Source of the DNA: a bacterium
GTDB taxonomy: Bacteria > Auribacterota > UBA3054
Assembly: GCA_017649705.1 (NCBI GenBank)
Contig: JAGCGH010000150.1
Span: forward strand, 1-49,331
Reading direction: 5' to 3'
Length of the DNA stretch: 49,331 nt
Positions 17,664-47,999 of the stretch are shown here, piece after piece. Position 1 is the first letter of the stretch. Each line of letters begins with the position of its first letter. The translations under genes and the position numbers were made by a program. The notes beneath the pieces are model-generated. The model had not been told where the DNA came from and ran no database searches. It worked only from the letters and a program-made list of their open reading frames with translations.

Positions 17664-17957
17664 TTATTTGCCCGGCTTGACGCAGAGGTAAATGAGCAGG
17701 ATGAGGTTCACGATGGGGATGAGGTAAAGCAGCACCCAGAGTCCGGAATGGCCGCAGTCATGGAGACGGCGGACAGAGATGGAGATCGAGGAGATTAAAA
17801 TGATGATGGAAAGGATCGTGCCGACGACACCGCCGATCACACCGCCGAGGATTATGCTGAGGATCAGGATGACGACCAGAGGAATGATGAACTCTTTCCT
17901 GGAGGCCTTGCCGCTGAAATTCAGGATGTTGGTGAAGAAGCTAACGAATTCGTTCAT
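17664..17957 (-). CDS. DUF805 family membrane protein
   Basis: The 97 residues begin MNEFVSFFTNILNFSGKASRKEF, the typical opening of DUF805 proteins (aromatic residues, then SGRASRREF). Three hydrophobic helices follow, with the conserved motif RRLHDCGHSGLWVLL between the second and third. The function of the family is unknown; it lies in the inner membrane. The Shine-Dalgarno AGGAG lies eight bases before the ATG. TATAAT (18002-18007 on the minus strand) lies about 45 bases upstream and may be its -10 element, so it is probably a single-gene unit. The bidirectional terminator follows the stop. Confidence 0.88.
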   Translation of the reverse strand: MNEFVSFFTNILNFSGKASRKEFIIPLVVILILSIILGGVIGGVVGTILSIIILISSISISVRRLHDCGHSGLWVLLYLIPIVNLILLIYLCVKPGK

Positions 17958-18036: not shown

Positions 18037-18528
18037 TCACTGCACGGTGGCGTCCGCTTCCTTGGGAGCGCCGGGAGGCCCCAGCTTCACGGCCTGCCTC
18101 ACGACGTACCAGCGGAAAAGGGAGGCGGCCACCAGCATGACAAGGATGTGGCAGAGGGCCGGCCAGGCGGCCGAGAAGATGCAGGCGATGATGGCTATGG
18201 GCACGATGCCGAAGCCGCAGAGCAGGATGCCGATGAGCAGCCAGGCCCAGTGGAAGACGCACAGCGTCATGAAAGCGGAGAAGATGAAAAGGAAAAAGCC
18301 CAGGATATAGGAGATTATGAGGATAGGGGCCAAAAGGGGCTTTGTCAGGCCCGGTATCAAAGAGAGGAGGACAAGTATCACGCCAATGCCTATGACGGTG
18401 GGCGAAACGTAGGTCAGGGGGGCCATGAAGGCCGACAGGAACTGGGCGCCCTTGAAGAGGAGGAACAGGATGAAGATCAGGCCCAGGAAGAAGAAGATGG
18501 ACAGAAGAATGTTGCCTAGAGTTTTCAT
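18037..18528 (-). CDS. Polytopic membrane protein, unknown function
   Basis: The 163 residues are almost entirely hydrophobic, with about four or five membrane helices and a short basic/Pro-rich C-terminus (KLGPPGAPKEADATVQ). No family motif was recognised. Its ATG overlaps the stop of the XPB-like helicase gene by four bases, so it is the last gene of the rpoN-XPB operon and its translation is coupled. Alternatives such as a transport permease fragment are possible but unsupported by any motif. Confidence 0.7.
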   Translation of the reverse strand: MKTLGNILLSIFFFLGLIFILFLLFKGAQFLSAFMAPLTYVSPTVIGIGVILVLLSLIPGLTKPLLAPILIISYILGFFLFIFSAFMTLCVFHWAWLLIGILLCGFGIVPIAIIACIFSAAWPALCHILVMLVAASLFRWYVVRQAVKLGPPGAPKEADATVQ

Positions 18529-20237
18529 GGTTTTTTCGGTTTTTTTGGTTCGGTTGGTTCTTTGTATTTTTCAATACGGTATTCGTAGCCCTGCTCCGTC
18601 AGGAACATCTGCCGGTTGAGGGCGAAGTCCTGCTCCATGGAGTTCTGGGTCACGATGGTGTAGAAGTAAGCGGTGTTTGATCCGGACTTGGGGCGCAGGA
18701 TGCGGCCCAGGCGCTGGGCTTCCTCCTGGCGGGAGCCGAAGGTGCCGGAGACCTGGATGGCCACGTTGGCGTCCGGGAGATCCACGGCGATGTTGCCGAT
18801 CTTGGAGACCATCAGGACGTTGATCTCGCCCCGGCGGAACATGCCGTACAAAAGGTCCCGGCGCTCCTGGGAGGCGGAGCCTGTGAGAAGCGGGATCTTC
18901 AGTTCCTTTGAAAGCTTCGTGAGCTGCCCGATGTACTGGCCGATTATGAGAATGTGGGAGCCCTTGTGCCTTTTCAAAAGCATTTTCACGCAGCCGGTCT
19001 TGGAGGGGTTCTCGGAGGCGACGCGGAAACGCACACGGTCGCTTGAGACGGCGTAGTCGCATTTGCTCTCCTCCGCCAAGGGCACCCTGATCTCCGTGCA
19101 GGTGGCGGAGGCAAGCCAGTTCTGGCTCTCCAGCTCCTTCCAGGGAACGTCGTAGCGCTTGGGCCCCACCAGGCTGAAGACGTCGCCTTCCTTGCCGTCC
19201 TCCCGGACCAGGGTGGCCGTCAGCCCGAGGCGGCGGCGGGCCTGGATGTCGGAGGTGATCCTGAAGACCGGCGCGGGCAGAAGATGGACTTCGTCATAGA
19301 TTATAAGCCCCCAGTTGCGCTTGTGGAACAGTTTGAAGTGGGGGAAATTGTCGCTGCTTTTTTCCGGATGATAGGTGAGTATCTGGTAAGTGGCCAACGT
19401 GATGGGGGCGATCTTTTTTATCTGTCCGGAATACTCCGCGATGTCCTCGGGAGGAATGTTTGTCTTGTCCAGAAGCTCCCGCTTCCACTGGCGCAGGGCG
19501 GTGATGTTGGCGCTCAGGATAAGCGTGCAGGTCTGCAGCTTCGCCATGGCGCAGATGCCAATGATGGTCTTTCCGGAGCCGCAGGGCATGACCACCACGC
19601 CGCAGCCGCCCTCCACGGAGCCGCCTTTGTAAAAATTCTCCACCGCCAGATCCTGGTAGCCTCTTACGGAGAAGCCGCTTTCGCTTTCCGGCTTGAGGCT
19701 GAAATGGTAGGGGTCTCCCGGCACGTAGCCCACCAGGTCTTTCACCGGATATCCGAACTGGGTGAGGAGCCTTTTTATTTCGCCCCGGTTTTTTTCATCC
19801 ACCAGCCAGGAGGGATTCCCTCCTTCTCCGTGGGTGTCGGGGATGAGAAGAGAGGAGATCTTGGGATGGGCCGCCACGTAGCGCGCGGCCATTTCGTCCG
19901 TGGAGGAGAGCCTGAGCCAGGGTTCCTCCGCCGGAGTGAGGACCATTTTTCCGTAGCGGGAGCTGATGTCCAGCACGTTGCTGAGCATGGTCTTCGGCAG
20001 GGGAAATTTGCTGTAGCGTTCCAGAAGCTCCACCAGCTCTTCCGGCGTCAGGCCGGAGGCGATGGCGTTCCAAAGGGAGATATTGCTGATCCGGTAGGTG
20101 TGGATGTGCTCTGGGCTTTTTTCCAGTTCTGCGAAACGCGCCAGGGCGTCCCTGGCTTCCCCGAAAAGGGGATTGTCCACTTCCAGAAGAATGGAAAGAT
20201 CGCTCTGCACTATCACCGGATTCGTCAGGTCGGGCAT
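18525..20237 (-). CDS. XPB-like superfamily 2 DNA helicase
   Basis: This is a bacterial homologue of the eukaryotic TFIIH helicase XPB/Ssl2 (570 residues), expected to be an ATP-dependent 3'-5' DNA translocase. An N-terminal XPB-type domain (residues 5-120, VIVQSDLSILLEVDNP, SPEHIHTYRISNISLWNA) is followed by Walker A PCGSGKT (218-224), DEVH box (315-318), LGLTATLVREDGKEGDVFSL carrying the XPB-specific RED motif (345-347), and the C-terminal helicase half (SGTFGSRQEEAQRLGRILRP). The C-terminus is Lys/Pro-rich. The helicase-associated gene precedes it by ten bases and a membrane-protein gene overlaps its stop. A Bax1-type nuclease partner, found with archaeal XPB, is not adjacent. Confidence 0.92.
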   Translation of the reverse strand: MPDLTNPVIVQSDLSILLEVDNPLFGEARDALARFAELEKSPEHIHTYRISNISLWNAIASGLTPEELVELLERYSKFPLPKTMLSNVLDISSRYGKMVLTPAEEPWLRLSSTDEMAARYVAAHPKISSLLIPDTHGEGGNPSWLVDEKNRGEIKRLLTQFGYPVKDLVGYVPGDPYHFSLKPESESGFSVRGYQDLAVENFYKGGSVEGGCGVVVMPCGSGKTIIGICAMAKLQTCTLILSANITALRQWKRELLDKTNIPPEDIAEYSGQIKKIAPITLATYQILTYHPEKSSDNFPHFKLFHKRNWGLIIYDEVHLLPAPVFRITSDIQARRRLGLTATLVREDGKEGDVFSLVGPKRYDVPWKELESQNWLASATCTEIRVPLAEESKCDYAVSSDRVRFRVASENPSKTGCVKMLLKRHKGSHILIIGQYIGQLTKLSKELKIPLLTGSASQERRDLLYGMFRRGEINVLMVSKIGNIAVDLPDANVAIQVSGTFGSRQEEAQRLGRILRPKSGSNTAYFYTIVTQNSMEQDFALNRQMFLTEQGYEYRIEKYKEPTEPKKPKKP

Positions 20238-20247
20238 AAGTTTTTTC

Positions 20248-22431
20248 TTATATCGTTGGGAACGTCTGAAGGACGGCGCGTTTGTCGGTGATGTGGCTCA
20301 GGGCCTGGCGGACATCCGCCACGCATTCTTCTTTGACCACGAACTGGCCGAGACCGATCTGGGCGCTGAAACTGCGGTACCAGGAAAGGTGGGAGCTTTG
20401 CAGCTGCTGCTTGGTTTTCGTCGGGCAGTTGAGAAGGACCGTGACGGGCCCCCGGCTTTGTATGAGCCCCATGGCCCGCATGATGCGAAGCTTGGTTATG
20501 ATGGAGGTGTCGGGAGAGAACACGCGGGAAAGGCGCTGGTAGAAGACTTTGGGATTCTGGATGGCGGCCAGCTTGTCATGGGAGATGACGTAGCGCTTTT
20601 TGCCGTTGCGGTCCAGGTCCTCCTCCGCGATCGTTAAGCCCAGGGCTTTTATCCTGAAATCCAGCGTGTTGTTGAAGACCACCTCGTTGTCCATGGTGAC
20701 GGTTATGGCTCCGGAGGCGGGGATGGAGTAGTCCACCGCGCTGATGCGGTTGGAGTTCATGAGCTTCATGATGCTCTCGTCGCTCATGTAGCAGAGCAGC
20801 ATGGAGTCCCCGATGGGGGAGAAGGACTTGGGATGCTTGGCCAAAAGGTTGGCGGCGTCCCTGGGATTGTCGAAGGCGAAGAAGCAGGCGTCCTTGTGGA
20901 GAGTAACCTCCGAGATCACCCAGTCCCTCAAGGTGGTCACCACGTTGTCGGGGATGGGGGCGGTGGCGTGCTTTTTCAGAAAATCTATGAGCATGGAGAC
21001 CGGCCGGCCAGCCGCCACGGCTTCCCTGATGGTCTTCTGCTTGAGATGAAACACCGTGCTGGCATGGGTGGAGTTGGGAGCCGTTTCCGTAAACAGGCTT
21101 AAGAAATAGCGGACGTAGTCCCAGCGGCCGGAATTGATGAGGATAATTTCGAAATCATTCTTGACGATGAGCTGGACCTTGGAGGAGTCGTAACTGGGCA
21201 GAGGAGAAATGCCGTTGAAGGCTTCCCCCAATTCCGTCATGGAAACGTAATTTTTGCCGTCCTTGTCCGTGCCATGGTAGGTGAGGCCGGGAATGAAGAA
21301 ACGGAACCTAAGCTCGTTGTTGAAAAAGTCCCTGAGCTCTTCTTTCGTGAGGACATTGAGACGGACGTCTTCCCAGCCCCATTTTTTGGAGCCGCCGGCA
21401 GAGCAGCAGCGGTGGAGCGAGCGCTCCATCTCGGCGAGCACTTCCTCCTTCGGGAGCCATTGGCCGCGGCAGCCTTTCAGCATCCTGTTGTAGGCGCAGA
21501 CTAAAAAAAGCTCCAGCGAGGCGGTGCGCAGCGAATCGTTTTCCTTGACCAGCACCGAGGGGCAGGTGTTGCGCCACTCCACGTATTTGATCATTTGCGC
21601 GCCGAGGGGGAGCAGGCGAAAATCGCAAAGCTTCGGCCCCGGGGCTATGACGCCGGAGGAATCCATGCACAGAAGCCCGGAATCGATGCCGAAGCGCAGG
21701 ATGTATTCGAAGAGAAGGTCCCGGTTCTCCACGTTGGCGAAATGTTTTTCCAGCATGTCCCGGCTGAAGGCGTAGAAGCGGTGCTGCACCGAAAAGCGCA
21801 GATGCCCTTTTTCCGCCAGGCTCAGGAAGCTGTCCAGCCAGCGGCACATTTTTCCAGAGAATTCCGTGTCGACATTAAGGGGCTGCTCCGCCGGGGAGAC
21901 GCTGCCGATTATTTTCTGAGGCAGCTCGAACTCGTCCGTCTCGAAGCCCGGCGCCAGGACGATGTCGCCGGCGAAGTGGTCCTCGGTGAAGGGCCCGGGA
22001 GGCCAAAGCGCGGGGTCGGTGAAAAAAGCCACGCCGTAGTAATGGAGCTCCGCAAGATGGTCCAGGTTCAGGTCGCCGGAATAAGCGTTGGCGTAGAACT
22101 GGAGCTCGCAGCAGTTCATGACGAAAGTTTTTTCCTGGCCCAGGTCCAGCATGGCCAGGGGCGAGGAGGGAGATTCCGGATTGATCTTGTAGCGCTGCCC
22201 CCGGCAGTTCCTGAGGACCGCGAGCAGGGCGTAGGCCTGGGGGGAAAGTTTTTTCAGAACCGCGGCGCGCTTCGCCGGATTCGAGACCGCGTCCATCCAG
22301 TGGACGCCAAGCATGTTTTCCCCGTCCTCCAGCTGCTCTTTGGTCAGCCAGTGGCGGAACATGTTCCTGAGAGAATGCCTTTCCCCGGCCTTCTTGAAGA
22401 GATGGATGAAGTCAACAGTTGCGTTAGCCAT
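20248..22431 (-). CDS. Helicase-associated protein with XPB N-terminal-like domain
   Basis: The 727 residues have no Walker A or DExH box, so it is not itself a helicase. The region around residues 500-620 resembles the XPB/Ssl2 N-terminal (Helicase_C_3-type) domain also found in the neighbouring helicase: LRDWVISEVTLHKDACFFAF, LMNSNRISAVDYSIP. In several bacteria such a protein is encoded beside XPB, which supports a complex (established gene pairing, recalled without a search). The N-terminal half is helical and may be winged-helix-like (KAGERHSLRNMFRHWLTKEQ). The start is ATG 22431, overlapping the 68-residue gene by eight bases; the XPB gene starts ten bases after its stop. Confidence 0.8.
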   Translation of the reverse strand: MANATVDFIHLFKKAGERHSLRNMFRHWLTKEQLEDGENMLGVHWMDAVSNPAKRAAVLKKLSPQAYALLAVLRNCRGQRYKINPESPSSPLAMLDLGQEKTFVMNCCELQFYANAYSGDLNLDHLAELHYYGVAFFTDPALWPPGPFTEDHFAGDIVLAPGFETDEFELPQKIIGSVSPAEQPLNVDTEFSGKMCRWLDSFLSLAEKGHLRFSVQHRFYAFSRDMLEKHFANVENRDLLFEYILRFGIDSGLLCMDSSGVIAPGPKLCDFRLLPLGAQMIKYVEWRNTCPSVLVKENDSLRTASLELFLVCAYNRMLKGCRGQWLPKEEVLAEMERSLHRCCSAGGSKKWGWEDVRLNVLTKEELRDFFNNELRFRFFIPGLTYHGTDKDGKNYVSMTELGEAFNGISPLPSYDSSKVQLIVKNDFEIILINSGRWDYVRYFLSLFTETAPNSTHASTVFHLKQKTIREAVAAGRPVSMLIDFLKKHATAPIPDNVVTTLRDWVISEVTLHKDACFFAFDNPRDAANLLAKHPKSFSPIGDSMLLCYMSDESIMKLMNSNRISAVDYSIPASGAITVTMDNEVVFNNTLDFRIKALGLTIAEEDLDRNGKKRYVISHDKLAAIQNPKVFYQRLSRVFSPDTSIITKLRIMRAMGLIQSRGPVTVLLNCPTKTKQQLQSSHLSWYRSFSAQIGLGQFVVKEECVADVRQALSHITDKRAVLQTFPTI

Positions 22432-22630
22432 GTATCACAACCTTTATTGGGATGTTGAGACGGGCGCACTGGCGCTCGATGTCAGGGATGTGCTTCTCCT
22501 CGATGAGCCAGTGGGTGTCGTCCAGCTCGGTTATCACGGACCGGCTGATGCAGCGGTTCTTCCTGAGCTCGTTGCTCATCTTGGGATCCATGATGGTGAG
22601 GATGTGAACGTGGTAGTGCAGGACATTCAT
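22424..22630 (-). CDS. 68-residue unknown protein in the XPB operon
   Basis: A small open frame whose ATG overlaps the SpoU methyltransferase stop by four bases (22627-22630) and whose stop overlaps the helicase-associated start by eight bases. The protein begins MNVLHYHVHILTIMDPKMSN and ends with ARLNIPIKVVIHG; the alternating charged and hydrophobic pattern (WLIEEKHIPDIERQ) suggests a small alpha/beta domain. No cysteine cluster, signal peptide or membrane helix is present. The tight coupling on both sides and codon use like the neighbours argue that it is real. Its function is unknown; a small partner or regulator of the helicase pair is one guess. Confidence 0.7.
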   Translation of the reverse strand: MNVLHYHVHILTIMDPKMSNELRKNRCISRSVITELDDTHWLIEEKHIPDIERQCARLNIPIKVVIHG

Positions 22631-23448
22631 GGTTGCGTCCTCTTCTTTGGTAATGACCAGAAAAGGTAATAGGCGATCGCCGAGGCGGCCGTGACATTCA
22701 GGGATTCCACCCGTCCCTTCTGGGGAAGGGAATAAAGGGGAAGCGCCTCCCTGACCTTTTGCGGCAGACCGTGGGGTTCGTTGCCGGAAACGACCAACTC
22801 ATCTGACTTATTATAGCAAAAGTCAATATTAAGCGCATCTCCGTCGCCCGAAAGCGCGCAGATCCTATGCTTTTCCGGCAGTAGGAAGGCGAGGGCTTCC
22901 TCTTCGTCAAGATACATGAAATCCATGTCCAGAGCCGCGCCGGCGCTGGCTCTGACGGCCAGGGGATGAAGAGGGGAGACGCAGGGCTCGACCAATATCA
23001 TGGTTCGGCAGCCGAAGGCGGCGGCGCTTCTTATGATGGTCCCCAGGTTGCCCGGATCCTGCAGCTGCCAGAGGCAGGCTGCGGGCTCGCCCTTGGGAAG
23101 CGGCGAAGCCGGCTTAAGGGGAGGATTGGGCTCCACTATGAGCCCCAGCCCCTCGGGGTTTTTCAAAACGCTGGCTTTTTCGAAACATTCCTTGGTCAGG
23201 AGAAAAGCTTCGCAATGCGGCCCCGCGAGGGCTTCCGCCAGCTTTTGGCACTTGGGCGTGGCCTCTTCGGAAAGGAGAATCTTTTTGATTCTTTTTTTGT
23301 CCAAAGACAGGGCGTACTCAGCGGCGACGGCGCCTTCGGCCCAGCACAGGCCGCTGGCGTCCCGCTCCTTTTTCTCTCTCAGCTGTAGGGCGGACAGGAT
23401 GACGCCGGATCTGCGGCTGGTGATCCTCAAAAAGTTTTTCAAAGACAT
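22627..23448 (-). CDS. SpoU/TrmH-family RNA 2'-O-methyltransferase
   Basis: The 273 residues show the SPOUT knot motifs: motif 1 QDPGNLGTIIRSAAAFG, motif 2 ELVVSGNEPHGLP, and motif 3 SLPQKGRVESLNVTAASAIA. These enzymes use S-adenosylmethionine to methylate the ribose of rRNA or tRNA; substrates differ within the family (TrmH, RlmB and others) and cannot be fixed here. The N-terminal 95 residues form the usual RNA-binding substrate domain (LLSEEATPKCQKLAEAL). The start is ATG 23448, four bases after the TPR gene's stop; its own stop overlaps the 68-residue gene. Confidence 0.9.
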   Translation of the reverse strand: MSLKNFLRITSRRSGVILSALQLREKKERDASGLCWAEGAVAAEYALSLDKKRIKKILLSEEATPKCQKLAEALAGPHCEAFLLTKECFEKASVLKNPEGLGLIVEPNPPLKPASPLPKGEPAACLWQLQDPGNLGTIIRSAAAFGCRTMILVEPCVSPLHPLAVRASAGAALDMDFMYLDEEEALAFLLPEKHRICALSGDGDALNIDFCYNKSDELVVSGNEPHGLPQKVREALPLYSLPQKGRVESLNVTAASAIAYYLFWSLPKKRTQP

Positions 23449-23452
23449 TGTC

Positions 23453-24574
23453 CTAATAGATGGTTTGGCTGAGGTCTCCGGGAGACCGTTGAAGTTTTGA
23501 CGTCAGGTTTTTCAAAAAGGGGCTGGCGCCTTTGTGGATGTGCACCAGGGCGTAGCGGCGCAAGGCCTCCTCCCTGTCTCCCCTGGCGTCGGCGCATTTC
23601 CCCAGCATCAGCTGGGCGGCCGCCTGCACCCTGGGTTTCGCTTCTCCCGCCTTCAGGGCCCTTTCGAAGAAGCCTTCGGACAGGCGGATGTTGCCCAGGG
23701 CGAAGGCGGCGGAGCCCGTCAGGAAGGCGGCGTCCGATCTCAGGGGAAGGAAAGCCTTTTTGGAAAAACTTTTCGCGTAAAGGTTGGTGGCGGAGGCGAA
23801 GGCGCCGCGCGCGTTGCCGGAGCTCATTTCCGTTCTGATGGCGATAATGTCCAGGAAAGGGGAGCCCTTAAGCTCTTTCCGCAGTTCCGCGAGATGGGCC
23901 TGCGCAAGCCTGGGATATCCCAGGCTGCAGTATTCGAAGATCAAGAAGATCCTCATCTCCTTTTCGAATTCGCAGTTCGGGGAAAGCTGCTCCTCCACCA
24001 GGGCCAGTTCGTTTCCCGCCCCGTCGCTTTTCACGATCCAGTCGAGGCTGATGCTAAGCGGCCAGGGAGACTTTCCGAGAACGTGGTCGTAGGCGGCCTG
24101 GAGCATCAGGGCGTCGGCGGCGCATTCCCGGAAGGCGGCGGCTTTCCTAAAGCGCAGCAGGGCCAGCTTTGCCCAGAACATGGCTTCCGCGTATTTTTCG
24201 CTCCTGGCTTCCAGGGAGGCGCGCAGCAGGAAGGAGGCTCCGGAATAGAGCAGGAGCATGCCGTCTTCCTCGTCTTTCAGTTTCATAGCTAAATCGCAGC
24301 AGGCGGCCACCCGCTGCTCCAGGTTGCTGACGGAATTCTCGTCCTCTCCGTAGTAGGTCATTTTCCCAAGCTGCCCGGCCGCCAGGTAAAAGCAGGGCAG
24401 GAGGGAATCGGGAGCGGAGTTTTTGGCTTTGAGAAAAAGCTTTTCCGCCTCTTCGAAACGCGCGGAGTAAAGAAGGTCGCGGCCGGCTTTCAGATCGAAA
24501 CTTGGCGGGGCCGGGCGCGCCGCTAGGGCGGAGAAAAACACCAGGGCGGACAGCAGCAAGGGAAGCGGCCTCAT
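23453..24574 (-). CDS. Exported TPR-repeat protein, unknown function
   Basis: The 373 residues begin with a signal peptide (MRPLPLLLSALVFFSALAA), then about eight helix-turn-helix units with TPR-like spacing: DLLYSARFEEAEKLFLKAK, AMFWAKLALLRFRKAAAF, ALGNIRLSEGFFERALKAG, and DARGDREEALRRYALVHIHK. A periplasmic scaffold is the likely role. It overlaps the rpoN stop by four bases and precedes the methyltransferase by four bases, placing it second in a seven-gene operon. The residues LSQTIY end the protein. No named family is recognised beyond the repeats. Confidence 0.78.
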   Translation of the reverse strand: MRPLPLLLSALVFFSALAARPAPPSFDLKAGRDLLYSARFEEAEKLFLKAKNSAPDSLLPCFYLAAGQLGKMTYYGEDENSVSNLEQRVAACCDLAMKLKDEEDGMLLLYSGASFLLRASLEARSEKYAEAMFWAKLALLRFRKAAAFRECAADALMLQAAYDHVLGKSPWPLSISLDWIVKSDGAGNELALVEEQLSPNCEFEKEMRIFLIFEYCSLGYPRLAQAHLAELRKELKGSPFLDIIAIRTEMSSGNARGAFASATNLYAKSFSKKAFLPLRSDAAFLTGSAAFALGNIRLSEGFFERALKAGEAKPRVQAAAQLMLGKCADARGDREEALRRYALVHIHKGASPFLKNLTSKLQRSPGDLSQTIY

Positions 24575-26094
24575 AAGATCTGCCTCCTCAGGCGGCTCTT
24601 GGGAATGCCCAGGGCCTCCCTGTATTTGACCACGGTGCGGCGGGCGATGGGGCAGCCCTTCTCCGCCATGATGGCCGCCAGCTCCTCGTCGCCGTAGGGT
24701 TTTCTTTTGTCTTCGCCGGCAATTATTTCCAAAAGCAGATTCTTGGCGTCCGCGCCGGAGGTCTCCACGCCTTCGGAACTGGCGGCGGCCCTGCTGAAGA
24801 AGGCTTTCATCTCCATCAGTCCCTGGGGAGTGTCCATGTATTTTCCCGAGATGGTGCGGCTGACGGTGGAGTCGCTGAGGCCGAGCTCCTCGGCCAGGGC
24901 GTGCATGGTCAGGGGCTTCATGTGCCCGGGGCCGTTCCTCAAAAAATCACTCTGATGCTCGACTATGGCCTCCGCCACCCTGAGGATCGTTCTTTTGCAG
25001 AAGTTGAGCTGGCTGATGAAATTTTTCCCCGCGGCGATCCTTTCGCTCACGAAGGCTTTGGCCTTTTTGTCCATCGAGCGGGCGGAGTCGCGGAAACTTT
25101 TGGCGATCCTGACGTAGGGGAGGGCGTTGTCGTTGGTCTCCACTTCGAATTCGCCGTTTTCCTTTTCCCTGACTATGACGTCGGCCACGGCTTTGTCGCT
25201 TCTCGAATAGACGAGATCCCTGCCCGGGCGGAGGTCCAGGGTCCTGATGACTTCCAGGGCGTCCTTAAACTGCCCGCTGTCGATTTTGAGAGCGCTCATA
25301 ATGCGCTCGAAACGCTGGTGGAGAAGGTCCTCGTAGTGGTCCCTGACGATAAGATAGGCAGTTGAGTCCCGAAGGCCTTTCCGCTCCAGCTGGAAAAGGA
25401 AACTTTCCCTCAGGTCCCGGGCGCCCAGGCCGGGCGGATCGTAGCTTTTCAAAAGCTCCAGGCACTTTTCCACCATCTTTTGGTCGACCTTCAATTCAGC
25501 GGCCATCTCCTCCGGGCTTTCCGTAAGGAAGCCTTTTTCGTCCAGGCTGGCCAGGAGGTAATCGTAAACCGGCTCGTACTCTCCGGGCAGATCCAGGGCA
25601 AACTGATCCCTGAGCTCGTCGGAGAGGGTGCTGGGTCTGGAGAGGGAGTTCATGATGAAATCATGTCCCTCCTGCAGGCTCTCCCTGTCGCCCCGGGAGA
25701 GGTCCTCGCCGGCTTCCTCCCGGTAATAGTCCCGCCACTCCTCGCTTTCGCCGCTGAGCTTGTCGAGGGCGTAATCCTCGTCGCTGCCGTCGTTGGCGTC
25801 GTCGTCCTCGAATTCGCTGTTCCCATCGTGCTCGCGCCTCGCTTGGGCGTCCTGGCCGTCAGGGGAGAACTCGTCGGAAAAGATCTCGTCTTCGGAGCGG
25901 TCCTCGTCCGGGTAATACTCCTCCAGGGCGGGGTTGGTGTCCAATTCCTTCCTGATGGTCTGCTCCAGCTCCGTTCTGGTCTGCTGAAGCAGCGCGAGAG
26001 CCTGGCGCTGCTGCTGGGTAAGCCGCTGCTCCTGGCGCACGCTGAGATCGAGATCCAGCGAGGGGGTGTTGTAATGCTCCTGATCCTTAGGCAT
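24571..26094 (-). CDS. rpoN: RNA polymerase sigma-54 factor
   Basis: The 507 residues carry all the sigma-54 landmarks: the glutamine-rich region I (LTQQQRQALALLQQTRTEL) followed by a long acidic linker (about residues 60-150), the core-binding region, the promoter-binding helices (FLRNGPGHMKPLTMHALAEE and SDSTVSRTISGKYMDTPQG), and the RpoN box ARRTVVKYREALGIP near the C-terminus. Sigma-54 needs an AAA+ activator to open promoters; none is present in the window. I place the start at 26094 (MPKDQEHYN), since upstream codons add an unrelated leader. It has an extended -10 element upstream but no clear Shine-Dalgarno. It heads the operon running through the XPB genes. Confidence 0.95.
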   Translation of the reverse strand: MPKDQEHYNTPSLDLDLSVRQEQRLTQQQRQALALLQQTRTELEQTIRKELDTNPALEEYYPDEDRSEDEIFSDEFSPDGQDAQARREHDGNSEFEDDDANDGSDEDYALDKLSGESEEWRDYYREEAGEDLSRGDRESLQEGHDFIMNSLSRPSTLSDELRDQFALDLPGEYEPVYDYLLASLDEKGFLTESPEEMAAELKVDQKMVEKCLELLKSYDPPGLGARDLRESFLFQLERKGLRDSTAYLIVRDHYEDLLHQRFERIMSALKIDSGQFKDALEVIRTLDLRPGRDLVYSRSDKAVADVIVREKENGEFEVETNDNALPYVRIAKSFRDSARSMDKKAKAFVSERIAAGKNFISQLNFCKRTILRVAEAIVEHQSDFLRNGPGHMKPLTMHALAEELGLSDSTVSRTISGKYMDTPQGLMEMKAFFSRAAASSEGVETSGADAKNLLLEIIAGEDKRKPYGDEELAAIMAEKGCPIARRTVVKYREALGIPKSRLRRQIL

Positions 26095-26262: not shown

Positions 26263-26922
26263 ATGAAAGGAAAGACCGTATTGATAGCAGACGATTTCCC
26301 CGTGGTGGGAATGGGTCTGAAAAAGATCCTGGAGGACGCGGGAGGCTTTGAATTCAAGGGCTCCGCGGACAGCGCCTACGCGCTGAGGTCGTATCTCTCC
26401 GCCCAGAAAGCGCCGGATCTCATCGTGGTGGACTCCAACATTCCCCGCTGCGACATCAGCGAACTTTTAAGCAGGCTGAGGGAGTGGGCGCCCACGAGCA
26501 ACATTTTGCTTTTCTGCGCGGCGGACGAGGAGTTCACGGCGCTTTTGGGCTTGAAAAAAGGCGTGAAGGGAGTTATAAGCAAATGCGCCGGGATCGACGA
26601 GGTCGTGAGGGCCTGCCGCACGGTGGCCTACGGCGGGACTTACGTTTCCGGCGTGGCGGCGGAAAAGATGGCGGAATACATTTCGCAAAGCCCTTTCACC
26701 GCTGAAAAGAAAAGCGGCAAGCCTATTTTGTCCGCCCGGGAATTCATGGTCATGAGGAAGCTGACCACGGGAAACAATCTCTCGGAAATAGCCAGGGAAC
26801 TGAAGCTCAGCCCCAAGACCGTTTCGACTTACCGGGAGCGGCTGATGGCGAAACTGGGGGTGAAGACTTTGGCGGGGCTGATACGCTATGCCCTGCAGAA
26901 CGACATCCTATCTGACAGCTGA
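26263..26922 (+). CDS. NarL/FixJ-type response regulator
   Basis: The 219 residues comprise a receiver domain (1-120) and a LuxR-type helix-turn-helix (about 150-215; LSEIARELKLSPKTVSTYRE). The receiver has the acidic pair Asp10/Asp11, phospho-acceptor Asp57 (LIVVDSNIP) and Lys107 (GVISKCAG). The conserved Thr/Ser switch position is Cys85 (NILLFCAADEE), which is unusual. No histidine kinase lies in the window, so it is an orphan here. A good Shine-Dalgarno (AAAGGAGAA) precedes the ATG. It is divergent from rpoN and converges on the esterase gene with one base between stops. Its targets cannot be inferred. Confidence 0.9.
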   Translation: MKGKTVLIADDFPVVGMGLKKILEDAGGFEFKGSADSAYALRSYLSAQKAPDLIVVDSNIPRCDISELLSRLREWAPTSNILLFCAADEEFTALLGLKKGVKGVISKCAGIDEVVRACRTVAYGGTYVSGVAAEKMAEYISQSPFTAEKKSGKPILSAREFMVMRKLTTGNNLSEIARELKLSPKTVSTYRERLMAKLGVKTLAGLIRYALQNDILSDS

Positions 26923-28639: not shown

Positions 28640-30427
28640 ATGAAAAAAATATGCTTGCTAATTTCGCTGCTTTTCACCCTTGAGTGCCTGGCCGTCGGCA
28701 ACCTTGACCTGAAGGTCGCGGTGGTCTGCTACAACCCCTGGATGACCAACGTGGCGGAGCTCGTCAGGGGCCGCAGGCTCAACGCCACCTTCGGCTGGCC
28801 CACCGGACAAGCCATGGCCAACGAGCAGAAGTCCTGGTGGAAGGAAGCCACCTTCGGCATGGTCAAAGCCGATTTCGTGGTGGTCACCAATCTCGACATT
28901 TTCCCGCTGATGACCAGCGGCAAGCGCTTCAACCAGCAGAGCTATTATGACTATTGGAAGAAAGGGGAGAAGGACAAGCATCCCGGCGGCTCCTTCGACT
29001 ACGCCCACTTTCTGACCAACGACGTGCCCTGGATGATCCCGGCCATCGAAGAGGGCAGGATAGACCAGGTCTGGCTCTACGGCTGGCCCGGCATGGACAC
29101 CAATGAGACCAGGATGTTCGGCAAGGGCGCCTTCGGCTGCAATTCCTTCGGCTTCTCCGCGCTGCAGAACGAAAGGATGTTCATGATGTGCATGCCCAGC
29201 ATCGAAAGGTCGGATACGCCCATGGAAAACTTCGGCCACGGCTGCGAATGGCATCTGGGCGGCGCCTTCCACAACTACGTCTATTCCTTCGACAACGGCA
29301 TCGACTACACCAATTCCCACGACATGGCGCTTTACAGGGCCCACGGCAGCGAATGCACCGACAACGTCAACATAGGCGACGTGCACTACGCCCCCAACTC
29401 CGTGAGAGATTACGACTGGGGCAACACCACGCCGGTCATGAGCTACGCCGACTGCTGGTACGATTACCCCAACATGACCAACTGGGTGCCGAGGGAGATG
29501 ACCTGCGCGGACTGGGGAAACGGCGTCAACTACAAGCACAAAATTTGGTTCTTTAAGCATATGCCGGAAAAAGTCGGCCTGCGCCGCGGGCATATGATGA
29601 ACTGGATCACGAAGTACATGAACCCCAACATCGCGGCTTACCCGATAGGCTCGCATGAAACGATCCGCCAGGAGGACGTGGATCTGGCGGGCTTCTTCTC
29701 CTTCGAGATGAACGTTCCCCTGGGAACGACGCAGGTGGTGGTTAGAGTCAAGACCGGGCTTCCCGTGCTCTGCGGCTTAAGGAAGAATTACATTCCCTTT
29801 TACGACCGCTACCAGCAGGCCGGATCCGTTTACGATTATTTGAGCGACAGCCGCCAAACGGAACACACGATCACGCTGACGGGAAACGACTGCTTCGGCA
29901 AGCACATAGCGGGCAAGTGGTATCTTTCCTTCGGCAGCGCCTACGGCCACGGAAGCGTGGTCACCCGCAGACCTTTGAACTCCAACACCTTTTACACCGT
30001 CACGATGGAACTCTCGCCTAAGCCGGAACCAATGGACGGGACGGAATACGTGGAAATTACGAAGCCCGCGGAGGGGGACGTCTACCGCACCATGACCGAG
30101 CCCATAGAATGGGAATACAAGGCGCCCTCCGACGGCTGGCGCGCTTTTTACCTTTCTTACTCCACCAACGAGTTCCAGGGTCCCTTTTTTGACATCTGCG
30201 AGGACTACTATTACGAGCTGGACAAAAAATTCAGCTGGAACACCTTCCCTTACAAGCAGGTCACCGACAGGGCGGTGGTCAGGATCATCGCCGAGGATCT
30301 CCACGGCCACAACGTGACCAACTATTCCGGCATCTTCGGCATCAGTACCGAGCCCATTCCCGAGCCGGCGGCCGCCCTTTGCGCGCTGCTTTTGCTCGCG
30401 GCTTTGGGCGCGGCGAAAAAGCGCTGA
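28640..30427 (+). CDS. Secreted PEP-CTERM protein of an unrecognised family
   Basis: The 595 residues start with a signal peptide (MKKICLLISLLFTLECLAVG) and end with a PEP-CTERM tail: IPEPAAALCALLLLAALG followed by AAKKR. Such tails are recognised by exosortase-type systems for sorting to the envelope. The mature protein is Trp/Tyr/Asn-rich, with blocks such as FGHGCEWHLGGAFHNYVYSF and NIGDVHYAPNSVRDYDWGN; these look like conserved motifs of an uncharacterised secreted family, which I recall only loosely. The last third (residues 350-560) looks like beta-sandwich domains. No exosortase is in the window. A strong terminator follows. Function unknown. Confidence 0.8.
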   Translation: MKKICLLISLLFTLECLAVGNLDLKVAVVCYNPWMTNVAELVRGRRLNATFGWPTGQAMANEQKSWWKEATFGMVKADFVVVTNLDIFPLMTSGKRFNQQSYYDYWKKGEKDKHPGGSFDYAHFLTNDVPWMIPAIEEGRIDQVWLYGWPGMDTNETRMFGKGAFGCNSFGFSALQNERMFMMCMPSIERSDTPMENFGHGCEWHLGGAFHNYVYSFDNGIDYTNSHDMALYRAHGSECTDNVNIGDVHYAPNSVRDYDWGNTTPVMSYADCWYDYPNMTNWVPREMTCADWGNGVNYKHKIWFFKHMPEKVGLRRGHMMNWITKYMNPNIAAYPIGSHETIRQEDVDLAGFFSFEMNVPLGTTQVVVRVKTGLPVLCGLRKNYIPFYDRYQQAGSVYDYLSDSRQTEHTITLTGNDCFGKHIAGKWYLSFGSAYGHGSVVTRRPLNSNTFYTVTMELSPKPEPMDGTEYVEITKPAEGDVYRTMTEPIEWEYKAPSDGWRAFYLSYSTNEFQGPFFDICEDYYYELDKKFSWNTFPYKQVTDRAVVRIIAEDLHGHNVTNYSGIFGISTEPIPEPAAALCALLLLAALGAAKKR

Positions 30428-38833: not shown

Positions 38834-41443
38834 ATGCGAAAGTTTTTTCTAACGGCTTTGGCCGGATTGACGGCTGCCGCGGCCTTGGGCGGGCAGGTCT
38901 ATTACAGCTGTGATTTTGAGGAAGGCTACACTGACGGCGACCTTCAGGGCCAGCACAACTGGACGGTCAGGTCCACCGACGGCTACAGCAGCCAGGAAAA
39001 CGCTGCCACGGTAGGAAGCTACAACGGCCGGCGCTGCGCCAAAATAGAAAGGGGCACCGGTTGGGACGGCGTCATCGTGAAAGAAATACCGGAAACGCCC
39101 AAGGGCAGTTTCGTCAAGGTCTCCTTCAAATTCTTCTGGCCGTCTGATTCCAGCGTCTCCAGCGTCCTTTTCACCAGCCACTGGTGGAACCGCCCCATGC
39201 TTCTTAGGTTCTCTTTGAACGACAAGGGCAAGATTCAGGTCTACGCCCTCCAGGACGACGTCAACTGCGTGCCGCAGGTCTTCAAGACGAAAGGCTTCGA
39301 CCAGGGGCAGTGGATAGACGTCTCCTACACGGTGGATTTCAGTTACCAAATGTTCGATACTCTCACGGTCAACGGCACCGAGGGCGACATCAGCAAGGTG
39401 GCTTTGCACGACGACTCCAAGAATCTGAAGAGCTTCGCCGTCAACGTGGACGCCGGCGCCGACATCTGCGTGGACGACATCAAGGTTGAGACTGTGGCGC
39501 ATTCAGGCAACCCCAGGCTGGTCCTGAAGACCGACCGTTTTGTCATAGCCTCCAAAAACGCCTCCGCGAAAATGCCCATGTACAATTTCGGCGAAGGCGA
39601 GATCACTTATAGAGCCACTGTTGACGATCAGCCGGAATGGCTGACCGTGAAGAACCCGGAGGGGACTTTCACGGCCAACACCACGCTTGACTTCAATCTT
39701 GACCGCTCGCTTATGGCGACCAACGTCTATTACCGCGTGCTGCACCTTGAAGCGGGTTCGGCCGGCAGCAAGGAAGTCATGCTGAAGATCCATTCCAAGG
39801 GCGCCATCGCCGCCTATTCCTTCGATCCGCCGGCCCTCTATCCCGGCGAGATCACCGGCCAGGACGGTTGGAAAGGCAGAAGCGGGGACGGCTACGGACC
39901 AAACGACATGTCCATGGACGTCACCAACGTCTCTTTCGGCGTGGACGGCCCCTGCGGCTATATTCACAATTCCTACGGCTGGGACGGCTACGACTGTCCC
40001 GCCAAATCGGATGGCGAGAATCCTCTCATCAGAGTGTCCATGAAGATCAGGAAGGGGAGCGAGAGCACCCAGGATTCCTTCTATCTGCGCAACGGATGGT
40101 GGGATTTCCTCTATGAATTCTGGTTCTGGGTCTACGAGGGGAATTTCTATCTTTACAAATTCAATCTCGGCGATTCTTACGCCGTCACCGGTTTCCATCC
40201 CTTCCCCTTGGACACCTGGCTTGATCTCTCCTTCACCGTCGACATGCGCCTTTACCGTCTGACGGAGTTCTCCCTGGGCGACTTCTCGACGAACTTCGTC
40301 AAGGGCTTTGAGCTTTACACCAAGCACGATTCCGAGGAGCGCTACACGATCTTCAACACGCTGGCCTTCATCTGCGGCAACACGGACGTCACCGACGCTG
40401 AGCTTTTAATCGACGACATTCTGGTCACGGAACTGGAACGCGAGAAAAAACCCGTGCCGATCATGGAAAAGATCGTGCCGGTCGATCCGAAGGCCAGCAG
40501 CATGACGGTGCCCCTTTTGAACGCGGGCGGCAGGGGCTTCAACTACACCCTTAGCGTGCTTGATCTGCCGGACAACATCGTCCCCAATCCCAACAGAGGC
40601 AGAGTGGGGGAAACGGCCGAGCTTAAATTCGATCTGAAAACGTCCAAACTGGAAGACGCTTTTTACCGCTCCAGAGTCGTTCTGGATTACAAGGGCGTTT
40701 CCAGCAGCGGCGACGGCTCCGTAACTTCGCTCTTCACCCTTGCCAAGGGCGGCTGGTACTATACCACGGATTTTGAGACCGGCGGTTACGAGCTGGGCAA
40801 CCTGAGAGACCAGGACACCTGGGTGGCCGGGGGCGTTTCTTCGGAAACGAATCCGCAGGTCGCCAAGAAAGAGGGCGAGCAGTGCGCCTGTCTCCCAGGC
40901 GAAGGCTACATGAAGAGCGCCTGCTTCATTCCCTCGGAGAGCGACTTTACTTTCAAGTGCCGCTTCTTTGTCGAGGAAGGCGACGACGAAGGCTACGCCA
41001 AGCTTTCCTTCATCGATGACACCGGCTTCCTGCCATTCTACATCTGCCGCGACAACGAGATCGGCCGCGCGGTCCTGGGCTATATCCCGGCCGGGGGAGA
41101 CACCTTCGAGCCGCTCTTCACCGCTCCTCTTGACTCCTGGCAGAATTTCTCCGTCAGCATGAACACCAATCTGGAATTCGACGAAGTCACGGCCATCACC
41201 TTCGGCGATTACGAGACGAACCTGCCTCCCGGCTCGATCTTTCTGAAAACGGAATACGACGCCTGCGCCGTCTCCAATTTTACCATCAGGGTGGATAGAA
41301 ATACGGAGGAGGAAGTGGACGTCGCGCCCTTCTGGTTCGACAACATCGTCGTGAGGGACAGTTCCATACCGGAACCCGCGGCCCTTTGCCTGCTGGCGCT
41401 TGCTTTGGCTTGCGCTCGCGTTTGTTTGACACGGAGAGCTTAA
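38834..41443 (+). CDS. Three-module jelly-roll/BACON-like surface protein with PEP-CTERM tail
   Basis: The 869 residues have a signal peptide (MRKFFLTALAGLTAAAALGG) and the tail IPEPAALCLLALALACARVC followed by LTRRA. Three modules start near residues 23, 325 and 640, each opening with a phrase like DFEEGYTDGDLQGQHNW and followed, in the first two, by a BACON-like Ig domain (QPEWLTVKNPEGTF, YYRVLHLEAGSAGS). It is a clear but diverged paralogue of the 1,467-residue protein immediately upstream and of the partial protein at the right edge; DNA-level identity is low, so the duplication is older than the module expansion inside the giant gene. Sugar or glycan binding at the cell surface is inferred. 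No enzyme motif is visible. Confidence 0.83.
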   Translation: MRKFFLTALAGLTAAAALGGQVYYSCDFEEGYTDGDLQGQHNWTVRSTDGYSSQENAATVGSYNGRRCAKIERGTGWDGVIVKEIPETPKGSFVKVSFKFFWPSDSSVSSVLFTSHWWNRPMLLRFSLNDKGKIQVYALQDDVNCVPQVFKTKGFDQGQWIDVSYTVDFSYQMFDTLTVNGTEGDISKVALHDDSKNLKSFAVNVDAGADICVDDIKVETVAHSGNPRLVLKTDRFVIASKNASAKMPMYNFGEGEITYRATVDDQPEWLTVKNPEGTFTANTTLDFNLDRSLMATNVYYRVLHLEAGSAGSKEVMLKIHSKGAIAAYSFDPPALYPGEITGQDGWKGRSGDGYGPNDMSMDVTNVSFGVDGPCGYIHNSYGWDGYDCPAKSDGENPLIRVSMKIRKGSESTQDSFYLRNGWWDFLYEFWFWVYEGNFYLYKFNLGDSYAVTGFHPFPLDTWLDLSFTVDMRLYRLTEFSLGDFSTNFVKGFELYTKHDSEERYTIFNTLAFICGNTDVTDAELLIDDILVTELEREKKPVPIMEKIVPVDPKASSMTVPLLNAGGRGFNYTLSVLDLPDNIVPNPNRGRVGETAELKFDLKTSKLEDAFYRSRVVLDYKGVSSSGDGSVTSLFTLAKGGWYYTTDFETGGYELGNLRDQDTWVAGGVSSETNPQVAKKEGEQCACLPGEGYMKSACFIPSESDFTFKCRFFVEEGDDEGYAKLSFIDDTGFLPFYICRDNEIGRAVLGYIPAGGDTFEPLFTAPLDSWQNFSVSMNTNLEFDEVTAITFGDYETNLPPGSIFLKTEYDACAVSNFTIRVDRNTEEEVDVAPFWFDNIVVRDSSIPEPAALCLLALALACARVCLTRRA

Positions 41444-41489: not shown

Positions 41490-42515
41490 ATGAGCCGCGA
41501 CATCGATTGGGGAAGCTTGGGCTTCGCTTACATGAAGACGGATTATCGTTACGTTTCTTACTTCAAGGACGGGAAGTGGGACGAAGGCAAGCTTATTGGC
41601 GACGACATGATCACGCTGAACGAGTGCGCCTGCGTCTTCCAGTACTGCCAGGCCTGCTTCGAGGGTTTAAAGGCCTACACCACCAAGGACGGCAGGATAG
41701 TCAGCTTCAGGCCCGACCTGAACGCCGAGAGGATGGCAGAGAGCGCCAGGCGCCTAGTTATGCCTCCTTTTCCCGAAAAACGCTTTATAGAGGCTGTGAG
41801 GGCCCTTGTCAAGGCCAACAAGGACTTCGTCCCGCCCTTTGGCAGCGGCGCGACTCTTTATATCCGTCCCTTCATGATCGGCTCCAACTCCGTAATAGGC
41901 GTGAAGCCGGCTGACGAGTTCGAGTTCAGGATGTTCTGCACGCCGGTGGGACCTTACTTCAAGGGCGGCGCCAAGCCCATCGTCATCAGAGTCTGCGACT
42001 ACGACCGCGCGGCCCCGAGAGGCACCGGACACATCAAGGCCGGGCTTAACTACGCCATGAGCCTCTACGCCGGCATGGAAGCCCATGCGGAAGGCTATGC
42101 CGAGAACATGTACCTTGACCCCGCCACCAGGACGAAAGTCGAGGAGACCGGCGGCGCCAACTTTATCTTCATCACCAAGGACGGCAAGTTCGTGACGCCG
42201 AAGTCCGACAGCATCCTGCCCTCTATTACCCGCCGCTCCCTTATGGTCGTGGCTGAGAAATACCTCGGCATGAAGGTGGAGCAGAGGGAAGTGACCTTGG
42301 CGGAAGTTCCCGAGTTCGCGGAATGCGGCCTGTGCGGCACCGCGGCGGTCATCTCCCCGGTGGGCAAGATCGTGGATCACGGCAAAGAGATCGCCTTCCC
42401 CAGCGGTATGGAGAAGATGGGTCCCTGGACGCAGAAACTCTACGATACGCTTACGGGCATCCAGATGGGCGTAATAGAGGGCCCCGAGGGCTGGGTGGAC
42501 ACCATCATAGGGTAA
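41490..42515 (+). CDS. ilvE: Branched-chain amino acid aminotransferase
   Basis: IlvE is the PLP-dependent enzyme that makes or breaks leucine, isoleucine and valine by transfer of the amino group to or from 2-oxoglutarate, in the cytoplasm. The 341 residues match the class IV (BCAT) family: QACFEGLKAYTTKDGRIVSF, ARRLVMPPF, TLYIRPFMIGS, the PLP lysine in GTGHIKAGLNYAMS, EETGGANFIF, SILPSITRRSL and CGTAAVISPVG. The length is typical. It is a single-gene unit with its own strong promoter. Its 3' end is the last GC-rich coding sequence before the AT-rich block, and the downstream convergent gene ends 34 bases away with no evident terminator between. Confidence 0.95.
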   Translation: MSRDIDWGSLGFAYMKTDYRYVSYFKDGKWDEGKLIGDDMITLNECACVFQYCQACFEGLKAYTTKDGRIVSFRPDLNAERMAESARRLVMPPFPEKRFIEAVRALVKANKDFVPPFGSGATLYIRPFMIGSNSVIGVKPADEFEFRMFCTPVGPYFKGGAKPIVIRVCDYDRAAPRGTGHIKAGLNYAMSLYAGMEAHAEGYAENMYLDPATRTKVEETGGANFIFITKDGKFVTPKSDSILPSITRRSLMVVAEKYLGMKVEQREVTLAEVPEFAECGLCGTAAVISPVGKIVDHGKEIAFPSGMEKMGPWTQKLYDTLTGIQMGVIEGPEGWVDTIIG

Positions 42516-42549
42516 AATTCGCCGATTTATTATTAAATCTTGACTCTAT

Positions 42550-43461
42550 CTAAGGCGTTTTAGGTGGCAATATTTCCGGTGCGGCAGTAATAAGTTTTTG
42601 CCGTTCGTTGATTGCCATTGAAAAAACTGTTAGTCGCTCTTCATTAGAAGACTGTCTCAGTGCTAAGTTTGTCAGAGCATGATAATAGTCTACTAATGTT
42701 TGAGGATGTTTAGAATCGGCAAGCATGGATATGATGGGAAGAGACCTCGCTATTATTTTTTCCGAAGCATCTGCGTTTTTTTCTAACCATTCGCAGGCTC
42801 TAGCCATTTTTTTAGTTATTTCATCTTTTGATGTGATAATTGCAGCCAGTTTAAGCTCCTCATAAAGTGTTCCGCCTGCCCCTACATATTCCTTTATGAA
42901 ATCGTCTAACTCACCGCACGTCTCAGGGTCTTTTTTTGCATAATCTATTAGTTGCGTAACGGCGATATAATCTTTAGGATCGTATAAAATAACTTGCTTT
43001 TGTATATCAATAGCTTTGCTGGTGTCACCTAAATGGCTATAATATCGGCGCAATATTTGATAAATTTGCTTATACGAGGTGAGCCCTCTTCCTTCTGCTT
43101 TTTCTTTATGTTTCGAAAGCAGAGAGTTGACTTTCTGGGGAATTGTTTTATTATCAGAATTATCACAGACCCAATAATATAATTCCATTCCGTCCAAAAC
43201 CAAAGGCAATAATTCCTTGTCTTTCAGGACAACTGTGCTAAGGTTGTTATTTTTTCGGAGTTCTTTTATCATTCTTATTGCTTCTGCTCTTTTGTGACGT
43301 TTAGCTAGAACCTCGATATCTTGAAGCTTTAATCTTAAAGCATCGTTACTCACTATATTTTCAGAAACCAGCCAAACACTCGCGGATATATTTAGACCTT
43401 CTGACTTAAACGACGTCAGAGTGATTGCTGATAATAGCATAAAAAGTTTTATGTATTTCAT
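42550..43461 (-). CDS. Exported TPR-like protein of the AT-rich island
   Basis: The 303 residues start with a signal peptide (MKYIKLFMLLSAITLTSF) and continue with paired helices resembling TPR units: DIEVLAKRHKRAEAIRMIKE, QILRRYYSHLGDTSKAIDIQ, and DYYHALTNLALRQSSNEERL. A longer reading frame begins at 43512 but would overlap the preceding gene by 38 bases and bury the signal peptide, so 43461 is the better start. It is the last gene of the island operon and converges on ilvE. Function unknown; the role is probably in the periplasm. Confidence 0.72.
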   Translation of the reverse strand: MKYIKLFMLLSAITLTSFKSEGLNISASVWLVSENIVSNDALRLKLQDIEVLAKRHKRAEAIRMIKELRKNNNLSTVVLKDKELLPLVLDGMELYYWVCDNSDNKTIPQKVNSLLSKHKEKAEGRGLTSYKQIYQILRRYYSHLGDTSKAIDIQKQVILYDPKDYIAVTQLIDYAKKDPETCGELDDFIKEYVGAGGTLYEELKLAAIITSKDEITKKMARACEWLEKNADASEKIIARSLPIISMLADSKHPQTLVDYYHALTNLALRQSSNEERLTVFSMAINERQKLITAAPEILPPKTP

Positions 43462-43474
43462 GAGTGCTTTATCC

Positions 43475-44713
43475 CTATTTGTTAACTTTATATTTTTTAT
43501 AATCGTTTTCAACAGATGTTTTAAAAAAACAATTGTTGAGTACTCTGTTTGTCATTATGCCCTCAGGAAGTTGATCGATTTCAGGCCATTTTATAGTTAA
43601 AGCATCATAAAGGTCATTAAATTCAACGACCGCGTTTTCATTCGTAAGAGCCGCCACCACAGCATTGTGTTTATCTATAATGCTTAACTTATTTGTTGCG
43701 CAATAATTCCATAATGATTCGTTCCTAAAATCATTAGGCAAAATTTTAAGGATATCATTTGCTCTGGAAGCGAATCTTTGATCAAATGATATGGCTGTTT
43801 GAATATGTTTAATGCAATTTGTATAATCCTTCAGATTAATACAATAATCAGCGGCAAGGCTGTGTCGCAATCCTGCGAAAGTATCATGATCTATGCTTGG
43901 TACTTCAACAAAAATCAAAGCCAAGGCGCTTCTATAATCGTTTAAAAGCGCAGCTGATTGGGCGGCAGCAATATATGAATATGTTATGTAGGTCAAGCAA
44001 GTAGGGAAGGTAGGGACTTTTATAAAATGAATAAGCGCTTCTTGATTAGAAGATATAAAATTAATAGGAATGTCATTATCAAAAACACTTGCTAGCGTGC
44101 GTCCAAGGAAAAAATGTGACGCACCTCGCACAAAGCCATCTTTGTTTTCTGGTAGTAGGAAGAAATTAAAAACATTCTTAGCTTTCTCGAAATGGCTATT
44201 CCAAAATGTTCTTTCTGCGAGCCAGTACACTTTTCCTGGGAAACTGGACAGTTTCAAAAGATTCCGATATTTTTCGATATCGTACATCATGTCGTGGTCG
44301 TTTTCTAGTCTTTCTTGAAATTCCTCTACTGTTTTAAGCGATATGATCGTTTTTTGTACATTTATGCCAAACTGAGAACGCTGCCTATACGCAGCGCTCC
44401 AGTTATACTCAATAGATTTTTTAAGCAGGTGATAGTTGATTAAATTTTTTGCTTCCCAAATATACACATTTTCTTTTTTCTTTAGCTGCTTTTGCATTTT
44501 AAGAATAGCCTGCTCAGAGATTTTAAGATTAATACTCCTCTGTTTAATAAAAATATTACTTAATGATTCATAAGAAATATTTTCCGGGATCTTTGAATCT
44601 ATGTCGCTGTTTTCCAAAAAATCCCTCATATATTTGCGTGAAAACCATTCTTCTGACGCATGGATATTTCCGATGATTATCAAAGCAAATAAAGATATGA
44701 GCAATTTTTTCAT
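43475..44713 (-). CDS. Exported helical (TPR-like) protein of the AT-rich island
   Basis: The 412 residues begin with a signal peptide (MKKLLISLFALIIIGNIHAS). The remainder is mainly helical, Lys/Asn/Ile-rich, with TPR-like patches such as AERTFWNSHFEKAKNVFNFF, AAQSAALLNDYRSALALIFV and DYCINLKDYTNCIKHIQTAI. No enzyme motif is visible. It starts four bases after the stop of the preceding 394-residue gene with no obvious Shine-Dalgarno, so its translation is likely coupled. The paralogy with the next gene is limited to the repeat type. Function unknown. Confidence 0.72.
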   Translation of the reverse strand: MKKLLISLFALIIIGNIHASEEWFSRKYMRDFLENSDIDSKIPENISYESLSNIFIKQRSINLKISEQAILKMQKQLKKKENVYIWEAKNLINYHLLKKSIEYNWSAAYRQRSQFGINVQKTIISLKTVEEFQERLENDHDMMYDIEKYRNLLKLSSFPGKVYWLAERTFWNSHFEKAKNVFNFFLLPENKDGFVRGASHFFLGRTLASVFDNDIPINFISSNQEALIHFIKVPTFPTCLTYITYSYIAAAQSAALLNDYRSALALIFVEVPSIDHDTFAGLRHSLAADYCINLKDYTNCIKHIQTAISFDQRFASRANDILKILPNDFRNESLWNYCATNKLSIIDKHNAVVAALTNENAVVEFNDLYDALTIKWPEIDQLPEGIMTNRVLNNCFFKTSVENDYKKYKVNK

Positions 44714-44717
44714 TTAA

Positions 44718-45902: not shown

Positions 45903-45916
45903 AATAACCCCTTACC

Positions 45917-47907: not shown

Positions 47908-47935
47908 AGGAATACCATTAAATTTAATCACATTC

Positions 47936-47964: not shown

Positions 47965-47999
47965 TCAAAAATATCAGTGATTACTCTTCTATAGGAACG

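Follow-up and report, generated by a model that had tools for sequence, protein, structure and literature searches.

A candidate bacterial counterpart of the TFIIH XPB-p52-p8 subcomplex encoded in an operon of the Auribacterota

What partners does a helicase of the XPB family have in a bacterium, and what might they do for it? Human p52 and p8 control the XPB motor within transcription factor IIH (TFIIH), and the unit that they form with XPB is broken in trichothiodystrophy. Published papers state that homologues of p44 and p52 have not been found in bacteria (on earlier work, see Balasingham et al.), and we found no description of a bacterial p52 or p8 in the open-access literature, preprints excluded. 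The question is raised by contig JAGCGH010000150.1 of the Auribacterota assembly GCA_017649705.1, analyzed here as a window of 49,331 nt from a 2.1-Mb draft genome, in which an operon encodes an XPB helicase together with a 727-residue partner and a 68-residue protein. Together, these three proteins probably correspond, in a bacterium, to the XPB-p52-p8 subcomplex of TFIIH. An earlier note on this DNA had spoken of an XPB helicase pair; XPB and its partner were indeed found, and the core is larger than a pair, since it includes the 68-residue p8-like protein besides the p52-like partner.

The partner carries a single Pfam domain, PF13625, which is found at the N-terminus of XPB too. A profile of 33 partner homologues from several phyla (A4) was compared with all PDB sequences. 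Yeast Tfb2 ranked first (E 5.3e-8), followed by human p52 (E 0.003) and then XPB (0.19), and the aligned segments were collinear with Tfb2. The Pfam Tfb2 model matched two of the 33 A4 members, with a best E of 0.016. An AlphaFold2 model of the partner, with a predicted local distance difference test (pLDDT) score of 85, was searched with Foldseek against 350,542 PDB chains; the best 20 matches were all p52/Tfb2 (top E 5e-11), and the XPB N-terminal domain came next. VIA-align superposed residues 175–564 of the model on residues 128–458 of p52 chains (Z 11.7–13.9, about 245–300 residues), with a root mean square deviation of about 6–7 in most rows and higher in some, because the domains are placed differently. 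Against 6tru_A, a crystal structure of the p52 N-terminal half, the Z was 9.5. The protein is laid out as a winged-helix N-terminal half (about 59–410), a clutch (415–510), a domain resembling the p52 C-terminal domain (CTD; 514–564) and a p8-like domain (660–724). As modeled, it thus appears to have the p52 layout, with a winged-helix half, a clutch and a C-terminal domain of the type predicted to bind p8 following each other in this sequence. We consider it almost certain that the partner is a p52/Tfb2 homologue.

The helicase itself is readily assigned, with 810 bits on NF045503 (cut-off 610) and PDB sequence matches to Rad25/XPB at E 6e-85. Its motifs are intact (Walker A GSGKT at 220, DEVH at 315, RED at 345 and motif VI QRLGR at 508). 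The two RecA domains are preceded by the PF13625 domain (residues 8–132) and by a p8-like stretch (about 111–166). Judged from the sequence profiles, the N-terminal domain appears to be a clutch matching that of the partner.

The 68-residue frame is a real gene under strong purifying selection, because its non-synonymous divergence (dN) is 0.02–0.13 where the synonymous one (dS) ranges from 0.4 to saturation, and most of the differences fall on third codon positions. When 12 homologues, all from the order of the window, were combined into a profile and run against 177,635 PDB sequences, the top five matches were all Tfb5 (E 0.03–0.05). With 28 p8-like sequences from this order and the Planctomycetia (alignment A5), the same five Tfb5 sequences led at E 5e-5 to 8e-5, the next PDB sequence being at 0.037. 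A comparison of the family by hhalign with human, Chaetomium and yeast p8, the human query being identical to the PDB chain, gave a probability of 78% (65% on rerun). Its score of 26.8 is to be compared with a maximum of 14.7 among 150 column-shuffled profiles, none of which scored as well. The two families have in common a core made of DPxM..L and LDDTH. The AlphaFold2 model (pLDDT 81.5) is arranged as beta-alpha-alpha-beta-beta-alpha-beta; in Foldseek, Tfb5/p8 chains occupied ranks 2–4, 9 and 10 (probability 0.93–0.99), other ferredoxin-like chains scoring alike. Altogether, the 68-residue protein is very probably a p8/Tfb5 homologue, seemingly a distant one that is not a formal member of the Pfam family.

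Partner and helicase also resemble each other internally. Residues 418–563 of the partner align with residues 5–163 of XPB (hhalign probability 95%), and the p8 profile recognizes both the C-terminal 60 residues of the partner (94%) and residues 111–166 of XPB (83%), none of the 150 shuffled profiles doing as well in either case. These profile matches indicate that in both proteins a p8-like unit comes after a clutch. In TFIIH, the p52 clutch and the XPB N-terminal domain share a fold and pair, and the last domain of p52 binds p8 (PMC6422496), an arrangement that the pseudo-symmetry predicted for the bacterial proteins seems to mirror.

How far the set is conserved was assessed at two levels. 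Among 15 genomes of the order, eight from the genus of the window and seven from three other families, the order rpoN-TPR-SpoU-p8-partner-XPB is kept in all 15, contig breaks aside, even though the partners of different families are only 21–23% identical. Neither the gene order nor the 68-residue frame is thus peculiar to one genome. Beyond the order, 80 XPB loci in many phyla were gathered by a scan of genome contigs, and a p52-like gene was detected by profile beside or near XPB at 42 of them, the profiles having been built partly from these same loci. A hidden Markov model iterated from p8 picked up XPB and p52 domains too after two rounds; free-standing p8 genes were therefore counted from alignment A5 and open reading frame (ORF) length, and 22 of the 80 loci had one, these being from the order of the window and from Planctomycetes. 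We then considered 118 genomes of the Planctomycetia, the class of Gemmata, with p8, XPB and p52 each searched separately. All three genes were found in one and the same set of 60 genomes, and none of them in the other 58. The three lie together in 51 of the 60, without rpoN, TPR or SpoU genes and in the order XPB-p8-p52 instead of p8-p52-XPB as in the window; they are the core unit for which the earlier note had proposed to look. In the remaining nine the genes are scattered, one or more of them lying beyond 6 kb of p8 or on a different contig, and yet none of the three is absent. The scatter is due either to true relocation in long replicons (for instance, p8 with p52 and XPB 2 Mb off in G110; p8 with XPB and p52 elsewhere in G098; all three apart in G157) or to contig breaks. 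The three proteins appear to be functionally linked, as they co-occur even when their genes separate.

Other loci vary this arrangement. In G446, p8 immediately precedes the p52-like gene, and in the Auribacter-containing family of the phylum (f8), XPB stands behind a shorter p52-like gene of 559–576 residues. In the archaeal phylum of a Methanofastidiosia genome, 9 of 115 genomes have a p52-like gene, which lies away from XPB in G065; at two archaeal loci of this phylum (L239, L240), p52-like genes of 684–705 residues adjoin an ORF of 545–550 residues of no assigned kind. Five loci from Victivallaceae, Lentisphaerae and Chloroflexi (L113, L128, L101, L114, L115) have two different p52-like genes around XPB, which suggests a more complex assembly there. 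A shared partner following XPB in phyla lacking p52 was also considered and discarded, the genes in question (aminotransferase, UbiA, PMI, PhyH) being unrelated.

From their co-occurrence and domain make-up, we think it likely that the three bacterial proteins form a working complex. The clutch of the partner would pair with the N-terminal domain of XPB, and p8 would dock on the p52-CTD-like domain of the partner. In this arrangement p8, the clutch and the N-terminal and p8-like domains of XPB could form a ring holding the RecA lobes, which might both switch on and limit the XPB ATPase, as p52 and p8 do in TFIIH, and set the speed of the translocase. The complex would then be a regulated double-stranded-DNA translocase. 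In the fungal system, p52 and p8 stimulate the XPB ATPase when DNA is absent and set a ceiling on it when DNA is present, and the RecA lobes are encircled by a lunate ring made up of p8, the p52 clutch (MD2) and the NTE and DRD of XPB (PMC7708078); all four ring elements have counterparts in the bacterial set. The likeness to TFIIH (human 6nmi, Chaetomium 6trs, yeast Ssl2-Tfb2-Tfb5) thus extends to three homologous subunits, a clutch in both XPB and p52, a p52-CTD-like domain after the clutch, a free-standing p8 of about 70 residues, and RED and helicase motifs in XPB. Unlike TFIIH, the bacterial set is gathered in one operon and has very low sequence identity to its counterparts. The partner differs from p52 as well, in a C-terminal extension of about 160 residues (566–727; window 20251–20736) that p52 lacks and that ends in a second p8-like domain. 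None of the operon genes encodes XPD, p44, p34, p62 or the kinase, the rest of the genome not having been searched for XPD, p44, p34 or p62. The XPB of Mycobacterium tuberculosis belongs to this type and likewise has an N-terminal domain, but it was studied alone and taken to act without a TFIIH-like complex (PMC3353954). Archaeal XPB also works with a partner, Bax1, which, however, is a nuclease that binds to the thumb/HD2 region; our partner has PF13625 as its sole Pfam domain, a p52-like fold and no nuclease domain, and does not belong to the XPB-Bax1 system. The annotation of PF13625 proteins as helicase-associated ('Helicase_C_3') applies to the partner, but makes no mention of a relation to p52 or of a p8 companion.

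Several observations weigh against the equation with XPB-p52-p8. The Pfam Tfb5 model (PF06331) reaches the 68-residue protein at E 0.001 and 19.4 bits, below its gathering cut-off of 23.5 bits. Over 19 relatives, it exceeds this cut-off in no genome; it has the 68-residue gene as its best match within the genus and does not find it in other families, so that profile methods were needed. VIA-align with the 68-residue model returned many unrelated chains at Z 6–7 and no Tfb5 among the rows listed. The ferredoxin-like fold is common, and the structural match by itself was not counted as proof. A partner profile built from the order of the window alone (A3) finds no p52 in the PDB, and the link needs the wider A4. 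The Planctomycetia figures are a raw count of genomes, uncorrected for relatedness and with independent gains and losses uncounted. Moreover, p8 is missing beside XPB and the p52-like gene in family f8, in Paenibacillus and in Chloroflexi, and so is not obligatory. Finally, the fungal XPB/p52/p34/p8 unit is without translocase activity on its own and needs the rest of core TFIIH (PMC7708078), which implies that the bacterial unit must do without that remainder or have other helpers.

Could the partner instead be a paralogue of the XPB N-terminus that arose in bacteria, the 68-residue protein an unrelated ferredoxin-like one, and the whole a helicase complex that is no TFIIH subcomplex? PF13625 is common to XPB and the partner, the two align strongly, the p8 fold is widespread and the order-only profile misses p52, all of which would fit. 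However, p52/Tfb2 outranks XPB both by sequence (5e-8 vs 0.19) and by fold (the top 20), the resemblance to p52 reaches into the N-terminal half of the partner (6tru_A), and at E < 0.01 A5 matches nothing but Tfb5. We therefore judge this explanation unlikely. A defense or mobile helicase module is very improbable. XPB-like helicase cores do occur in some defense systems, and PADLOC reports PbeA matches on the helicase core, but it has no match for the partner or the 68-residue protein, so that the locus does not qualify as a Pbe system. No nuclease is adjacent, and the genes are single-copy, their arrangement being stable throughout one order and one class. The defense-related role that had been suggested for the operon thus finds little support.

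The neighborhood of rpoN deserves the same scrutiny, as XPB-p52-p8 might aid the sigma-54 polymerase in opening promoters as TFIIH aids Pol II. Sigma-54 polymerase does require an ATPase for promoter opening, and rpoN heads the operon in the 15 genomes of the order, which represent four families. However, the phylum's other families have rpoN unlinked to XPB, no XPB locus examined outside the order has rpoN nearby, and the operon also holds SpoU and an exported TPR protein, as a mere string of housekeeping genes might. The genes rpoN, TPR and SpoU are flanks tied to the core in one order only and not part of it. The idea of promoter opening, RNA modification and DNA unwinding under one control is accordingly unsupported beyond this order. 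The complex may open promoters together with sigma-54, though this role is not favored, and a device dedicated to it is, in our estimate, rather improbable, slightly more so than the paralogue origin. As the module stays together without rpoN in other phyla, a role of the XPB-p52-p8 counterpart in DNA repair or in DNA opening generally is more likely than one at sigma-54 promoters only.

To our knowledge, this bacterial XPB-p52-p8 module, which is real and conserved, was previously unrecognized. Its p52-like and p8-like partners give bacterial XPB a testable complex and explain its N-terminal domain, and how p52 and p8 drive XPB could be studied in a genetic system of three proteins, Gemmata being one possible host. 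The module is also relevant to the origin of TFIIH. Considering Planctomycetia, Auribacterota and the p52-like genes of Methanofastidiosia archaea, we tentatively raise the possibility, which we hold at somewhat less than even, that the XPB-p52-p8 engine predates eukaryotes, that bacteria use it to open DNA in repair or transcription, and that eukaryotic TFIIH took shape around a module inherited from prokaryotes.

Table 1. Genes of the operon and its downstream neighbor (window positions)
Feature	Position	Strand	Evidence	Status
rpoN, sigma-54	24571..26094	-	TIGR02395, 374 bits; first gene of the operon	flank
TPR protein, signal-peptide-like N-terminus	23453..24574	-	weak TPR matches	flank
SpoU/TrmH-family RNA 2'-O-methyltransferase	22627..23448	-	PF00588, E 1.5e-26	flank, order-specific linkage
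68-aa p8/Tfb5-like protein (probable)	22424..22630	-	Tfb5 profile matches, model, low dN/dS	core
727-aa p52/Tfb2-like partner	20248..22431	-	PF13625, profile and fold searches	core
XPB-family SF2 helicase/translocase, 570 aa	18525..20237	-	NF045503, 810 bits	core
Hydrophobic membrane protein, 163 aa	18037..18528	-	no family match	genus-specific
DUF805 membrane protein	17664..17957	-	PF05656, E 1.3e-18; 79 bp downstream of the operon	genus-specific

All seven frames of the operon (Table 1) were confirmed, as was the tight packing described earlier, with overlaps of 4–8 bp or gaps of at most 10 bp. From rpoN to the membrane gene, the six junctions are a 4-bp overlap, a 4-bp gap, a 4-bp overlap, an 8-bp overlap, a 10-bp gap and a 4-bp overlap. 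The two membrane protein genes were seen only in the genus of the window among the 15 genomes compared; one genome of this genus (G007/L053) comes from water-buffalo rumen. Judged by its relatives, the window falls in Candidatus Auribacterota, to which Candidatus Auribacter fodinae also belongs. Divergent from rpoN lies a gene for a LuxR-type response regulator (26263–26922, plus strand), whose position is kept throughout the genus and which may share a regulatory region with the operon. Elsewhere in the window, three large exported proteins have PEP-CTERM-like C-termini, made of PEP, a hydrophobic stretch and a basic end (28640–30427, 38834–41443 and 48050–49330). The stretch 42500–48000 has a G+C content of 35–42%, against 55–60% elsewhere, and its ORFs, some with signal-like starts, are flanked by genes for PEP-CTERM-type proteins; this composition and placement suggest that it was acquired recently.

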